Origin: Halicephalobus mephisto
Lineage: Eukaryota > Nematoda > Chromadorea > Rhabditida > Panagrolaimidae
Length of the DNA: 64,000 nucleotides
Direction of reading: 5' to 3'
Assembly: GCA_009193035.1 (NCBI GenBank)
Contig: SWDT01000003.1
Coordinates: 496,001-560,000 of the forward strand
In this document: positions 48,840 through 63,960 of the stretch, piece after piece
Layout of the letters: every line of letters begins with the position of its first letter
How positions within the stretch are numbered: the stretch's first letter is position 1
Translations under genes and position numbers: made by a program
Notes under the pieces: generated by a model
Told to the model about the DNA's origin: nothing
What the model saw: only the letters and a program-made list of their open reading frames with translations
Database searches by the model: none

Positions 48840-49085
48840 TCGGTCATTGCGGTCCCGGGGGATCGAAGGGATATAGATTTTCTCGATCCTCCTCCTCAAT
48901 TTCGCGCAACGTTGTTTGGCCCCGTTTTCCGTTCTGACTGAAGGCGGGACAGGTAAACCACTGTGCCAGTTGTCCGTCCTACATCGAGTGGACAACGGTC
49001 AATCTCCTGTTTTCGGGGACTGGCACTAACGCCGTATGCAAATTACGCCACATTGCACTTGTAAAAGTCACGGATAATTAAGAAA
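48840..49085. other. GC-rich island in intergenic DNA
   Basis: About half G+C over 240 bases, against well under 30% around it. It contains the inverted pair GTTGTCC/GGACAAC (loop of 15) and a GACAG|GTAAAC string resembling a donor on the plus strand. It could be a promoter, an untranslated first exon or a non-coding RNA; no coding frame convinces. Confidence 0.4.
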
Positions 49086-58231: not shown

Positions 58232-61200
58232 TTAAGATCTGACAGGATGAATGATGTTTGTTCCGCTTCTGGACGACCTTTGGGATTCTGTATCGTCGTC
58301 ACCGATGATGTGATTCAGATCCAGAGCTCCCAGTCTGGCTTGATGGACGTCCATGTTGAACTGGGCTATCGTAGCGATGCTCAAAGATGACATGTACAGT
58401 GTCTGCACCACTCTGCAAAAATTTCATCAATTTGAAAAATAAAATTATTAAAAAAATTAAAATATTAAAATATTAAAAAATACTAAAAATAAAATTATTA
58501 AAAATATTAAAAAAATATAAAATTATTAAAAATAAAAATATTAAAAATCTTAAAAAATAAAGTTATTAAAAATATTAAAAAAATAAAATTATTAAAAATA
58601 AAAATATTAAAAATTTTTTAAATTTAAAAATATTAAATTATTAAACAATTAAAAATAAAATTATTAAAAATATTAAAAAATTGAAAAATATCATAAATAT
58701 TAAATTATTAAAAGTATTAAATTATTAAAAAATTTAAAAAATTTAAAAAATATTTAAATTTAAAAATATTAGAAAATTTAAAAAAATAAAATTATTAAAA
58801 ATTTTAAAAATTTTTAAATTTAAAAATATTTAATTACCAAAAATATTAAATTATTAAAAAATTTTAAAAATTAAAAAAGTTTTAAAAGTTTTTATAAAAT
58901 TTTTAAAAAAGTTACTTGTAGAGAACAATGGGTCGAACTAGGTTTTCGACGACGAGGAAACAGCCGATGAGATAAGCTAGAGCCTGAGTCAATTGAGGAA
59001 CGGCGACGATGAAGGCGAATCTGAAGGCCTGAGTCACGACCACGGACGAGAGTCGATGGAAACTGAAACTTAGATACTGATCGTGATGTCCGGAAATTTC
59101 AGATAGACTTTCTCCGACTTCTGAATCTGACATGTTTTCGAAAGTCCTCAAACCAATCTGAAATAATTACAGTAATCCAAAGAAAAAATTTTTTTTTTAC
59201 TTTTGCTTTTTCATTTTTTTCAGAAATGGCTCTTTTAAGATGGATGTCGGCGATTCTGAAAACGAAGTACTGTGCTACGGCCTGGATCCCGAAGCAGACG
59301 GAGCAGAAGAAAGCACTTGGGACGTTTTTTTCGAAAACAAAAGCGACTCCGAACGCCAGCGAAAAAACGCCGACGGTGAAGTTCGAAAGTCTGACGTCAA
59401 AAGCCTGAAAATGTTTAACTTTATTTTATAATGTTTAATTTTACATTTTTCTCTGATTCTGGAGCAAAATTTGAATATTTTAAAATTTTGAAAGTTATAA
59501 AAAATACAGCAATCAAATTTCGACATCGATATTAACAAAGTTCAACTTCAATTTTAAAAGTTAAAATTATCTGAATTTCAAAAGTCAAAATTGGAAGTAA
59601 AAATTCAACTTCAAAATTGAAAGTTAAAATTGACTAAATTTCAAAAGTCAAAATTGAAAGTTAAAGTTCAACTTCAATTTTAAAAATTAAAATTATCTGA
59701 ATTTTAAAACTCAAAATTTAAAGTTAAAGTTCAACTTCAAAATTGAAAGTTAAAATTGATTTCGAAATTTGATTAATTTTAAATTCCAAAATTCAACGTC
59801 AAAATTGAAAGTTAAAATTAACTGAATTTCAAAAGTCAATGTTGACAGTCAGAGTTCGATATCAATATTGATTTTGACTATCAACTTTGATGTCGAACTT
59901 TGACTGTCAACCTTGATTTCAAACTTTGACATTCAACTTTGATGATTAACTTTAATTTCAATTTTCAATTTTCGATTTTCAAATTTAAATATAATTGTCA
60001 ACTTTGAAGTCGAACTTTTACTTCCGAATTCGACCTCAAACTTTGATTGTTAACTTTGCTAAAATAAATCACATAATTCCAAATTTCAAACTGCAACATT
60101 TTAATCTTCTGAATCCTGAAGCCTAATTCTCATTCTGATTCCAGATTCAGAATCTGTCTGGTTACTGTATTCTAAATATTTTAAAAATTTTAAAACATCT
60201 AAATTTAATTCCAAAAATGTGCAAAATTACGTAAAATAAATTTTAAAATTGTTCAAAAAAAACTTACGGATTTACATTGATTTGCGGATTTCGTAACCAA
60301 AGACACCATAGATTGACGGACAGAATCCGGAAGGTTCGGACCGTGTCTGTCTGTGAAGTCCGTGTAGACCGAGCATCTGACTTCCTTCGCTATCGATTCC
60401 CCGTTTCGAGCATAGATTATCGTCTGAAATAAATTCGTGAATTTTATTCGTGATTATATAAAAAAAGCAACTTTTAGTTTTTTAACAATTACAAAATGTA
60501 ACACAATCGTCACATTTTTATGAATATTTGACTTTTGTCACAAAAATTTAAAAATAATAATGACGATTTTTATTTGTTATTATGCCAGAAACTACGTTTT
60601 TTATGTAGAGATTTTGGATAGTGTCTATTTCGAACTCAAATCAGGGCTTTCTAGTCACTATCCAAAGTCTCTGTACACAAAAAGCGTAACTTTTGGTTTC
60701 TTAACAATTGCGAAAAATAACACAATCGTCACATTTTCCATTAATACAGTAGAACTTGGATATAAGATACCTCCGTTATAACATATCTCACATTATAACA
60801 TACAGTGTGAGTGTGTTTGATTAGTCTGTCTTCAAATTTATCCCCGCTATGATATATCTTATAATATACGCTTTGGCCGGTCCCTAGGGGATATCCCATA
60901 TCCAAGTTCGACCGTATAATAAATATTTTTAATGTTTTGTACTCTCGTTCCAGTGCTACAGTAGTTTCAATTTCCACAACATTAAAAACTAAAAATTAAT
61001 TTTACATTAATTTTAAAATTTTTATTAAATTTTAAAAATTTCCAAATATTAAATTTTAGGAAACTTTTAATTTTTAAAATTTCCAAAGTTTTTAAAATTA
61101 TTAATGAATTTTCGAAACTTTTTAATTTTATAAATTTGCAAAACTTTTTAATTTTATAAAATTGCAAAACTTTTTAATTTTATAAAATTTCAAAACTTTT

Positions 61201-63960
61201 TAATTTTATAAATTTTCGAAACTTTTTAATTTTATAAATTTGCAAAAAAAACTTACACAAAAAATTCCAGCAAGACACGTGATAATCCCGGCAACGAGGT
61301 ACTTCCAGGAGATGGTCACAGCTTCAGAAAAAAAAGGTTCTAAAAATTACATAAAACAACTTTATAAAAAATATATTTAAAGTAATTTTACAAAAAATAA
61401 TTTTAAAAAAAATATTTAAAGTAATTTTTTAAAATATAAAATTATTTTACAAAATATAAAGTAATTTAAAAAAATATAAAGTAATTTCACAAAAAATATT
61501 TAAAGAAATTTTTTAAAAAATATTTAAAGTAATTTTTTAAAATATAAAATAATTTTAAAAAATATTAAAAATAGTTTTACAAAAAAAAATAATTTTTTAA
61601 AAAATAAAATAATTTTATAAAAATAAAACAATTTTATAAAAACTCTTACCTGTTCTTCCAATTTTATAAAATTCATAAAGATCACCATTGAGTTTCGTGA
61701 AAGTCGGAGGAGCAGCGGCGAAAATCAAACAAAAAATAAATCCTAATCCGTAAATTTTCTTTTTCAAAGCTGATTTTCTTAAAAAAATAAATCCCGAACA
61801 ATTTTTTGGATGAAAACTTTCTGAATAATTTCCTATTTCATTTTTGAAAAACTTTAATAAAAAAGTTTTTCTTTTCGATTCTGAATTTTCTTGGATTACG
61901 GTAGGATTAGGATCTTCTTGGATTACGGTAGAATTAGGATCTTCTTGGATTACTGTAGGATTGGGATTTTCTTGGATTACGGTAGAAATAGGAACTTCTT
62001 GGATTACGGTAGGATTGGGATTTTCTTGGGCTACTGTAGAATTAGGATTTCCTTGGATTACTGTAGGATTAGGATTTTCTTGGATTACTGTGGAATTAGA
62101 ATTTTCTTGGATTACGGTAGAAGTTGATTTTGAATTCTGGAGGAGGTTTTGGACATGGCTTAGGGCAAATCTGGATCGGTAGAGATTTTTCAAATTTAAA
62201 TGAATTTGACCGAATTTCATTGCCGCTGGCATTATGCTACAGGCGATGACGAAGATGTACCCCGGATTCGTCATTAAAGAGTTGTCAATGAGCCAATTAC
62301 CGTACAATGCCCCGAGGCCCATTCCGACGTAAATAAATAATTGAGGACTTCCGACGAGAATTCCGCTAAAAATCGATTTTCTGATTCCGATTCTGAATTG
62401 TTTTTCACAATGGTTTCTGTAGGTCGAAGACGTCTTCAGGGCTTCTGAAGTTTTTGCATTTAATTTTTGTTCTTTTTTAAAATCAGAATTCAGAAATAAA
62501 TTAAAAATAAAAATCCAAAAAAATGAAAAAATTCCGAGGCCGAAGACGGGAAACGTCAGCCGGGGATTCAGACGGAACGAGATCAGAACCGCCGTCAGGA
62601 TCTGCGAAATACTAGAAATAACATTCGGCAAAGATTCCGTCAACGATGTAGAAATTTTTTCAATATCTGTTTCAAATTTTTCATTTTTTTCATTATTTAA
62701 ATTATTTTGAAAAAAATCCAATTTTTGTGAAATTAATAATCGAAAATATTTTCTTCGGATTCTTCTGACGACCTTCAGACTCACCAATCGGAAACAGACA
62801 AATTGTAAAAAAGCAATTATTGTCAAAAATATTGCTCCAGAAACGAAATACAGTAATAAAGGAGTAGTCTTCGCCCTGAAGGCATCTGAAGCCGGCTCCA
62901 CCATCACGAAGACGTCCAGAAGCCATCCGACGACACACACAAGATGAGGAATTCCGGCTCCAGTGAAAATCGCCAAAATTGATCCGACAAAAAGAAAAGC
63001 ATAATCTCTAATGGCCAAATAATCTCTCTGAAACGGATAAATCAGATCCAAATCCGAAATCTTTACTATTTCATCAAAATCAATAACCAAACTTCGAGAT
63101 CAAAGTTGGTAGTAAAACTTCGAAGTCAAAGTTGACAGTAAAACTTCGAAGTCAAAGTTGACAGTAAAACTCCGAGACCAAAGTTGATAGTAAAATTTCA
63201 AAGTCAAAGTTGGACATCAAAAGTAATGACAGAACTTCAAAATAAGAGTTTGAAATCAAAGTTTGAAGTTAGAGGTGACAATTAGACTTTGAACTTTGAT
63301 TGTTAACATTGATATTAAAGTTTTACCATTACTTTTGATGTTGAATATTGATGTTGAACTTTGATTATCAACTTTGATTGTCAACTTTGATGTTGAACAT
63401 TGATGTAGAACTTTGATGCTGAACTTTGATTATAAACTTTGATGCAGAACGTTGACTATCAATTTTAATTGTCAACTTTGATGTCAAAATATGACTATCG
63501 ACTTTGACTATCAGCTTTGACTATTAACTTTGACTATCAACTTTGAATACAAACTTTGATATAGAACTTTGACTATTAACTTTGACTATTAACTTTGAAT
63601 ACAAACTTTGATATAGAACTTTGACTATTAACTTTGAATACAAACTTTGATATAGAACTTTGACTATTAACTTTGACTATTAACTTTGAATACAAACTTT
63701 GATATAGAACTTTGACTATTAACTTTGATTGTTAACTTTGATATAGAACTTTGATTGTCAACTTTGATATAGAACTTTGACTATTAACTTTGATTATAAA
63801 CTTTGATATAGAACTTTGACTATTAACTTTGATGTTAAAGTTTTATCGTTACTTTTGATCTTGAACTTTGATTGTCAACTTTTAGTAAAACAAAACACTG
63901 TAAACTTACTAAAGAAATAAAATCCTTGAATCCAGGTTTGGTATTTTTTTTATCTGTCAT
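58232..63960 (-). CDS. ABCB/P-glycoprotein-like protein lacking nucleotide-binding domains
   Basis: Exons 63960-63910, 63060-61650, 61339-61257, 60423-60268, 59404-59201, 59157-58916 and 58412-58232 give 775 residues (full P-glycoproteins have about 1280). Domain 1 (residues about 18-325) has six helices in P-gp order, starting YAFLFVGSILAIFTGAGIPH and ending NPGYIFVIACSIMPAAMKFGQ; its second cytoplasmic loop looks shortened. Residues about 330-411 are a 9-residue repeat (TVIQENPNP). Domain 2 follows with GLGFIFCLIFAAAPPTF, the ARNGESIAKEVRCSVYTDF helix (compare AGEILTKRLRYMVF) and the last helices in exons 6-7. The protein ends soon after. No Walker A, LSGGQ or Walker B motif occurs in either half, so ATP-driven transport by itself is excluded; partnering or regulation is a guess. 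The acceptor at 63061 (GTAAAG) is weak, and the gene may start beyond the window. Confidence 0.75.
58413..58915. repeat. ABC-like gene intron 6, ATTAAAAATATTAAAA microsatellite
   Basis: The intron is almost entirely ATTATTAAAAATATTAAAAAA repeat between the GTAACT donor (58915) and TTTGCAG acceptor (58413). Confidence 0.8.
59405..60267. repeat. ABC-like gene intron 4, AAAGTTCAACTTCAAAATTG array
   Basis: 59535-60060 is a diverged array of 18-base-like modules (AAAGTTAAAATTGACTGAAT, TTCAAAAGTCAAAATTGA), turning at about 59860 into the complementary sense (CAACTTTGATGTCGAACTTT), so the two halves can pair. Confidence 0.75.
60424..60744. mobile_element. Palindromic element in ABC-like gene intron 3
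   Basis: TGTAGAGATTTTGGATAGTG (60604-60623) and its near-complement CACTATCCAAAGTCTCTG (60656-60673) make a 20-base stem that extends outward with mismatches to about 60570 and 60700. A further direct copy of the right flank (AACACAATCGTCACATTTT) lies at 60500-60518. It is non-coding and probably a miniature transposon. Confidence 0.6.
60747..60914. mobile_element. 168-bp MITE, Tc1/mariner-type ends
   Basis: CAGTAGAACTTGGATAT at 60747-60763 is matched at 15 of 17 positions by the complement of 60898-60914 (CGGTCGAACTTGGATAT). TA flanks both ends (60745-60746 and 60915-60916), as in TA-target insertions. CAGTrGAACyTsG ends with TAACATA interiors resemble pogo/Tigger-type termini. No transposase is present. 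Confidence 0.7.
60980..61256. repeat. ABC-like gene intron 3, proximal 27-bp repeat
   Basis: Six copies of CTTTTTAATTTTATAAATTTGCAAAA immediately beside the exon donor. Confidence 0.8.
61340..61649. repeat. ABC-like gene intron 2, AAAGTAATTTTTTAAAATAT repeat
   Basis: The whole intron is a short AT-rich tandem repeat (20-30 base units). Confidence 0.75.
61880..62130 (-). repeat. Coding 27-bp repeat in the ABC-like protein
   Basis: About nine units of 27 bases encoding TVIQENPNP and variants; on the plus strand the unit is TTGGATTACGGTAGGATTAGG plus TTTTCT. Substitutions favour Asn/Pro/Ser exchanges and keep the frame. Two plus-strand frames are also open across it, giving shadow ORFs. Confidence 0.9.
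63061..63909. repeat. ABC-like gene intron 1, AACTTTGACTATTAACTTTGATATAG array
   Basis: 63090-63880 is built of 18-base-like modules (AACTTTGACTATTAACTTTG, ATATAGAACTTTGA). The first 150 bases carry the opposite sense (AACTTCGAAGTCAAAGTTGA), so the array is partly self-complementary. It resembles the intron 4 array of the same gene. Confidence 0.8.

Follow-up and report, generated by a model that had tools for sequence, protein, structure and literature searches.

Gene structure and predicted protein

The window analyzed here is a 64,000-nucleotide stretch of contig 112 (C112) in the 59.9 Mb genome of the panagrolaimid nematode Halicephalobus mephisto. Within it, seven minus-strand exons (58232-63960), spliced at GT-AG introns, form a single open frame for a P-glycoprotein-like protein of the ATP-binding cassette (ABC) type, in which both transmembrane domains (TMD1 and TMD2) are present and both nucleotide-binding domains (NBDs) are missing. 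The rebuilt protein has 764 residues and consists of TMD1, a linker with TVIQENPNP repeats, TMD2 and a short polar tail. An earlier interpretation of the letters alone (hereafter, the sequence-only reading) had proposed this order of parts up to the stop codon, and every point of it that can be read from the sequence holds. The exons of the 764-residue model have a G+C content of 0.395; in the first model, the six introns range from 0.04 to 0.27.

An exon 2 start at 63060, behind a weak acceptor, was dropped after ortholog comparison; the start at 63027, following CCGTTTCAG, was adopted because the N-termini of P0001 and P0002, two database relatives described below, point there. Upstream of the exon 1 ATG, at a distance of 15 bases, there is a TTTTCAG acceptor, possibly a trans-splice site or the mark of an upstream exon.

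Pfam PF00664 recognizes TMD1 (E 1.2e-23) and none of the TMD2 exons of the window gene taken singly; TMD2 as a whole matches the P-glycoprotein encoded next to the gene (E 9e-10). Both matches, along with structure models of relatives, show that a single chain holds two membrane domains of the ABC exporter type. The TVIQENPNP repeat (Table 1) forms no array in the relatives, of which P0002 and P0012 carry one TVIQ or TVIE, and looks like a local expansion within a loosely held linker. Simple arrays of AACTTTGAT-like units, with periods of 13, 26, 39, 63 and more, occupy introns 1 and 4 (63334-63882 and 59536-59965, respectively).

Table 1. Features of the NBD-less gene, in window coordinates (TM, transmembrane segment; ICL, intracellular loop).
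Feature	Position	Strand	Evidence or remark
Exon 1: ATG to FISL, N-terminus ahead of TM1	63910..63960	-	Donor GTAAGT; resembles N-termini of P0001 and P0002
Exon 2: TM1-TM6 (TMD1), linker, TM7	61650..63027	-	PF00664, E 1.2e-23
Shortened TM4-TM5 cytoplasmic loop (ICL2)	62377..62478	-	32 residues from anchor to anchor; normal ABC segments of this genome have 49
27-base tandem repeat, 8.8 copies, in-frame; TVIQENPNP-like units at the linker site expected for NBD1	61885..62122	-	
Conserved linker block KRKTFLLKFFKNEIG in the place of NBD1, common to subfamilies A and B	61831..61875	-	Alignment
Exon 3: start of TM8	61257..61339	-	Matched by P0001 and P0002
Exon 4: end of TM8, ICL3	60268..60423	-	Gene model, alignment
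Exon 5: TM9-TM10	59201..59404	-	Gene model, alignment
Exon 6: ICL4, TM11; ends at a phase-2 intron also found in the normal neighbouring P-glycoprotein	58916..59157	-	
Exon 7: TM12, short polar tail, stop; no NBD2	58232..58412	-	Gene model, alignment, NBD profile search

Absence of nucleotide-binding domains

A normal P-glycoprotein gene with both NBDs adjoins the locus on the same strand, 12 kb upstream (about C112:572253-582996). A profile built from four P-glycoprotein NBDs of the same genome, including NBD1 of this neighbour, was run in six frames with filters off and gave no match at E ≤ 10 across C112:545001-571500, that is, 26.5 kb comprising the gene and its introns, from window position 49001 to the window end and 11.5 kb further. 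The same run picks up four NBD exon pieces of the neighbour (E 2e-130 to 4e-17), the strongest of which is NBD1, itself in the profile; the other three, NBD2 pieces outside the profile, scored E 6e-46, 5e-25 and 4e-17. On the entire window the profile returned only two matches (E 2.4 and 2.9), both far from the gene, and a motif scan of the 26.5 kb found neither a Walker A motif nor an LSGGQ string. NBDs hidden in introns or flanks are ruled out by these profile and motif scans. The central claims of the sequence-only reading, namely both membrane domains without NBDs and no Walker A or signature motif in exons or introns, are thus borne out by the gene model, the PF00664 match and both scans. 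Neither the window gene nor its relatives carry the two NBDs with Walker A, signature and Walker B motifs of a full transporter.

An NBD-less family in panagrolaimid nematodes

The first spliced model (775 residues) was used as query against 5.8 billion proteins, and the 7,999 candidates sharing most words with it were scored. Six matches were found at E ≤ 0.001: three full ABC transporters (Xylaria, Nemania and one unnamed) at 20-26% identity and three NBD-less relatives, at 57-63% identity. The latter come from Halicephalobus sp. NKZ332 (63% over 100% of the query), the closest by identity among the candidates scored, Panagrolaimus sp. JU765 (57% over 99%) and P. superbus (57% over 48%). Searches with the second halves of P0002 and P0009 returned 9 and 5 matches, respectively, at E ≤ 1, none with a listed NBD domain; those with a name belong to Panagrolaimus, Halicephalobus and Panagrellus, and P0012 carries none.

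Altogether, the databases hold 11 members (P0001-P0003 and P0007-P0014), and none shows an NBD. A Pfam scan of 10 of them at E ≤ 1 detected ABC_membrane in 10/10 and ABC_tran in 0/10 (the best PF00664 stretch of P0003 being its TMD2), and the precomputed domains of the eleventh, P0008 from Panagrellus redivivus, include no NBD. All named members are from panagrolaimid nematodes, although absence from other nematodes is not proven, since the search depends on shared words. Where a UniRef label exists it reads ABC transmembrane type-1 domain-containing protein, the chimeric P0008 aside. A search of a plasmid collection with the exon gave no match, as expected for a nematode.

Two of the database models have peculiarities of their own. 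In P0008 the end of an NBD-less protein is annotated inside a serpentine receptor class gamma protein, probably because the annotation joined two genes. P0001 (Panagrolaimus sp. JU765) presents about 60 residues of ICL4-TM11 twice in tandem, either an exon duplication or a gene-model error.

Subfamily B copies and selection

A protein search of the H. mephisto genome uncovered two further copies (B1 and B2, subfamily B) on contigs 153 and 328. Models were made by hand: B2 runs from ATG to stop in eight exons, and B1 comprises seven, its first exon not having been found. Both are devoid of NBDs, the profile giving eight matches (best E 0.56) and no NBD relics in the 30 kb around each gene, and both end in RKSSTSSTDSxx, an ending also present in P0013 (Panagrolaimus sp. 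ES5). Read by eye, four introns of the window gene recur in B2 at the same place and phase: a phase-0 intron after exon 1, a phase-1 intron before TM8, another of phase 0 in ICL4 and one of phase 2 before TM12. B1 has the last three of these. No frameshift occurs in any of the three modelled genes.

Over 671 codons, the proteins of B1 and B2 show 81.7% identity, and the two genes differ mostly at silent sites: nonsynonymous divergence (dN) is 0.098, synonymous divergence (dS) 0.63 and dN/dS 0.155 (bootstrap interval 0.118-0.202), a ratio that pertains to the subfamily B pair, the window gene having no close copy. Intron divergence between B1 and B2 was considered as a neutral yardstick and proved unusable: three of six introns aligned better than all five shuffles (those of 49 and 58 bases and one in which the alignment covered a third of the length) and the other three did not. 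Conservation of the window gene against P0002 and P0001 is highest in TM1, TM2 and TM5-TM12 (71-88% identity), and lower in TM3/4 (46-54%), the cytoplasmic loops (48-68%), the linker (48-49%) and the tail (53-61%).

This is a conserved family and not decay. The sequence-only reading had argued for a kept protein over simple decay and named hidden NBD exons or frameshifts as what would speak otherwise; neither was found, frameshifts being absent from the three modelled genes, and the NBD-less relatives in other panagrolaimids and the silent-biased differences between the B copies uphold its argument.

Descent from a P-glycoprotein

Membrane domains were compared with 12 stretches of the genome holding normal ABC genes. 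TMD1 is closest to a contig 223 gene (E 7e-14), TMD2 to the neighbouring P-glycoprotein on contig 112. In addition, the phase-2 intron before TM12 lies at the same place and phase in the window gene and the neighbour. Together, these matches and the shared intron trace the family back to a full-length P-glycoprotein (ABCB) gene. A TMD1 tree of 22 rows, which left out five of the 14 family members, gathers the nine NBD-less rows into a single group (100/100) with a long stem (1.76), and does not pick out a sister or nearest normal P-glycoprotein of the family. The open frame of the neighbouring P-glycoprotein includes, ahead of TMD1, a long acidic region in which KKEEDSE-like units recur.

Remodelling of ICL2 and family-only residues

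The cytoplasmic loop between TM4 and TM5 (ICL2) docks an NBD. Of 13 ABC segments of the genome, which include three second-half segments and one other ABC gene, 10 have an ICL2 of 49 residues between two anchors, and three have a longer one because an intron was read through. In the family it spans 32 residues in 8/9 members and 16 in the ninth (P0013), i.e., it is shorter by 17 and 33 residues; rows were picked for having a BLAST piece that spans the loop, a choice that could favour full-loop rows. Coupling helix 2 presumably lies within the lost stretch, and on this measure (17 residues shorter in 8/9 rows) the family does not have the ICL2 coupling helix. The structure models of P0002 and P0009 still fit the membrane domain of P-glycoprotein, superposing over 587-609 residues, and in both ICL2 is reduced to two long helices with a six-residue turn between them. 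SbmA, a bacterial protein considered below, is not among the fold matches listed (50 per table), by which similarity is not excluded.

Some residues set the family apart (P0002 numbering). H45 in TM1 is found in 7/7 family rows covering the site, a count that leaves out the misaligned, faulty start of P0003, and the ABC segments of the same genome have L, V, I, I, M, L and A there (seven rows, two of them from one gene). P284 in TM6 occurs in 9/9 family rows versus 0/12 ABC segments, and D265 at the end of TM5 in 11/12 family rows. Four more are present in 12/12: the linker residues K341, E351 and E357, and E406, which follows TM7. All of these are candidates for function, and the TM1 histidine, the TM5-end aspartate and the TM6 proline are candidates for new coupling and gating.

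Comparison with known systems

With full-length P-glycoproteins (ABCB1 and nematode PGP) the family shares the membrane fold seen in two relatives, the TMD1 match and the place and phase of the TMD2 intron of the neighbour; it differs from them in the lack of both NBDs, an ICL2 17 residues shorter and the family-only H45, D265 and P284.

The SbmA_BacA Pfam profile had no match at E ≤ 1 in 10/10 relatives or in five pieces of the window protein, and the closest kin of the family are, unlike SbmA/BacA, ABCB proteins. A likeness is found elsewhere. PMC13316013 describes SbmA/BacA, bacterial proteins of the SLiPT group, as thought to derive from ABC exporter membrane domains by loss of NBDs and coupling helices, as proton-driven and as adopting states that resemble those of ABC transporters. 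The same paper presents SbmA as a homodimer of a six-helix core with extra TM0 helices, unlike the single chain with both halves found here. As for the SLiPT trait of having neither NBDs nor coupling helices, the family lacks the former and has a cut-back ICL2, and the P0002 model keeps short helices in ICL1 and ICL4.

Constructs of MsbA and LmrA that lack NBDs also are ABC exporter membrane domains on their own, being laboratory truncations and not natural genes: according to PMC4979069, the MsbA membrane domain alone exports ethidium under a pH gradient, and the same paper mentions apparent ethidium-proton symport by that of LmrA.

SUR, the KATP channel subunit, differs from the family in keeping its NBDs and in belonging to ABCC. 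Truncated insect ABCC2 is similar in that the membrane part, without one or both NBDs, still acts as a receptor for Cry proteins, according to PMC8145640 and PMC8535714; these are ABCC mutants or engineered forms, not a conserved gene family.

Among the titles and abstract beginnings listed from open-licence papers, none reports NBD-less P-glycoproteins as a natural nematode gene family, and a review of nematode ABC transporters mentions pseudogenes and, in the part covered, has no word beginning with Panagr (PMC10300789).

Possible function

The family has lost its NBDs and 17 residues of ICL2, has retained both membrane domains and is conserved. Since it was kept by evolution despite the loss of its ATPase, it probably works by something other than ATP. 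We put at about even the chances that it is a membrane protein built on a P-glycoprotein scaffold and working without ATP, most likely as a gradient-driven, perhaps proton-coupled, carrier, an option that the SbmA, MsbA and LmrA cases support. In such a carrier, the fused TMD1-TMD2 pseudo-dimer would still open alternately to both sides of the membrane, substrate would bind between the two halves, and substrate plus an ion gradient, most likely of protons, would drive the change of state in place of ATP, as in bacterial SbmA. More tentatively, the family could be the animals' own counterpart of SbmA: a P-glycoprotein that gave up both ATPase domains and a coupling helix, turned into a gradient-driven secondary transporter and was fixed and multiplied in one nematode family.

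Several points weigh against a carrier. A non-transporting protein could show the same conservation, the conserved charged positions could instead serve folding or ligand binding, no membrane glutamate ladder like that of SbmA is shown in the family, and the short ICL1 and ICL4 helices of the P0002 model are possible remains of NBD contact.

We rank second, at roughly one chance in four, a non-transporting receptor, scaffold or regulatory subunit whose membrane domain was kept as a ligand- or partner-binding body. Its precedents are a P-glycoprotein without both NBDs that is still matured by tariquidar (PMC4705942) and the NBD-less ABCC2 forms that remain Cry receptors (PMC8145640, PMC8535714). 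Conservation, however, peaks in the TM segments and not in the linker or tail, which fits a working cavity without proving one.

A passive pore, facilitator or lipid scramblase, gating without coupling to a gradient, is rather doubtful. Without NBDs the force with which ATP drives closing is gone, and the anatomy would be identical to that of a carrier, yet nothing specific points to a pore.

It is improbable that the protein is still driven by ATP, through NBDs supplied in trans by another protein or as dominant partner of another ABC protein. In bacteria it is normal for NBDs to be separate subunits, and the helices left in ICL1 and ICL4 could be read in this way; a survey of the genome for NBD-only proteins scored 19 of 144 candidates. 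Supply in trans is nevertheless unlikely because ICL2 is cut back, and in both subfamilies, and in P-glycoprotein a cross-link can be formed between ICL2, at residue 266, and NBD2 (PMC4705942). The dominant-partner role, which the sequence-only reading had offered as inference next to channel and receptor, seems the least likely because both membrane halves lie in one chain and the NBD-docking loop is shortened. Finally, a pseudogene or gene-model artefact, suggested by the faulty automatic models of P0008 (fused to a receptor) and P0001 (duplicate of about 60 residues), is highly improbable in view of open spliced frames in three genes, no NBD relics, alignment of P0001 and P0002 over 99-100% of the query length at 57-63% identity and a dN/dS of 0.155 in subfamily B.

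So far, the debate over ATP-free work by the membrane part of ABC exporters has drawn on truncated bacterial constructs and on SbmA. With a conserved NBD-less offshoot of P-glycoprotein occurring naturally in animals, the question can be tested in the best-studied ABC transporter, and the family reveals which residues change once the ATPase is given up.

Other loci

Contig 223 (147001-163000) carries on its minus strand several P-glycoprotein-type ABC membrane-domain segments close together, probably a tandem cluster. At the subfamily B loci, further stretches of 64-89% identity lie outside the genes in both orientations and are perhaps repeats or mobile elements.
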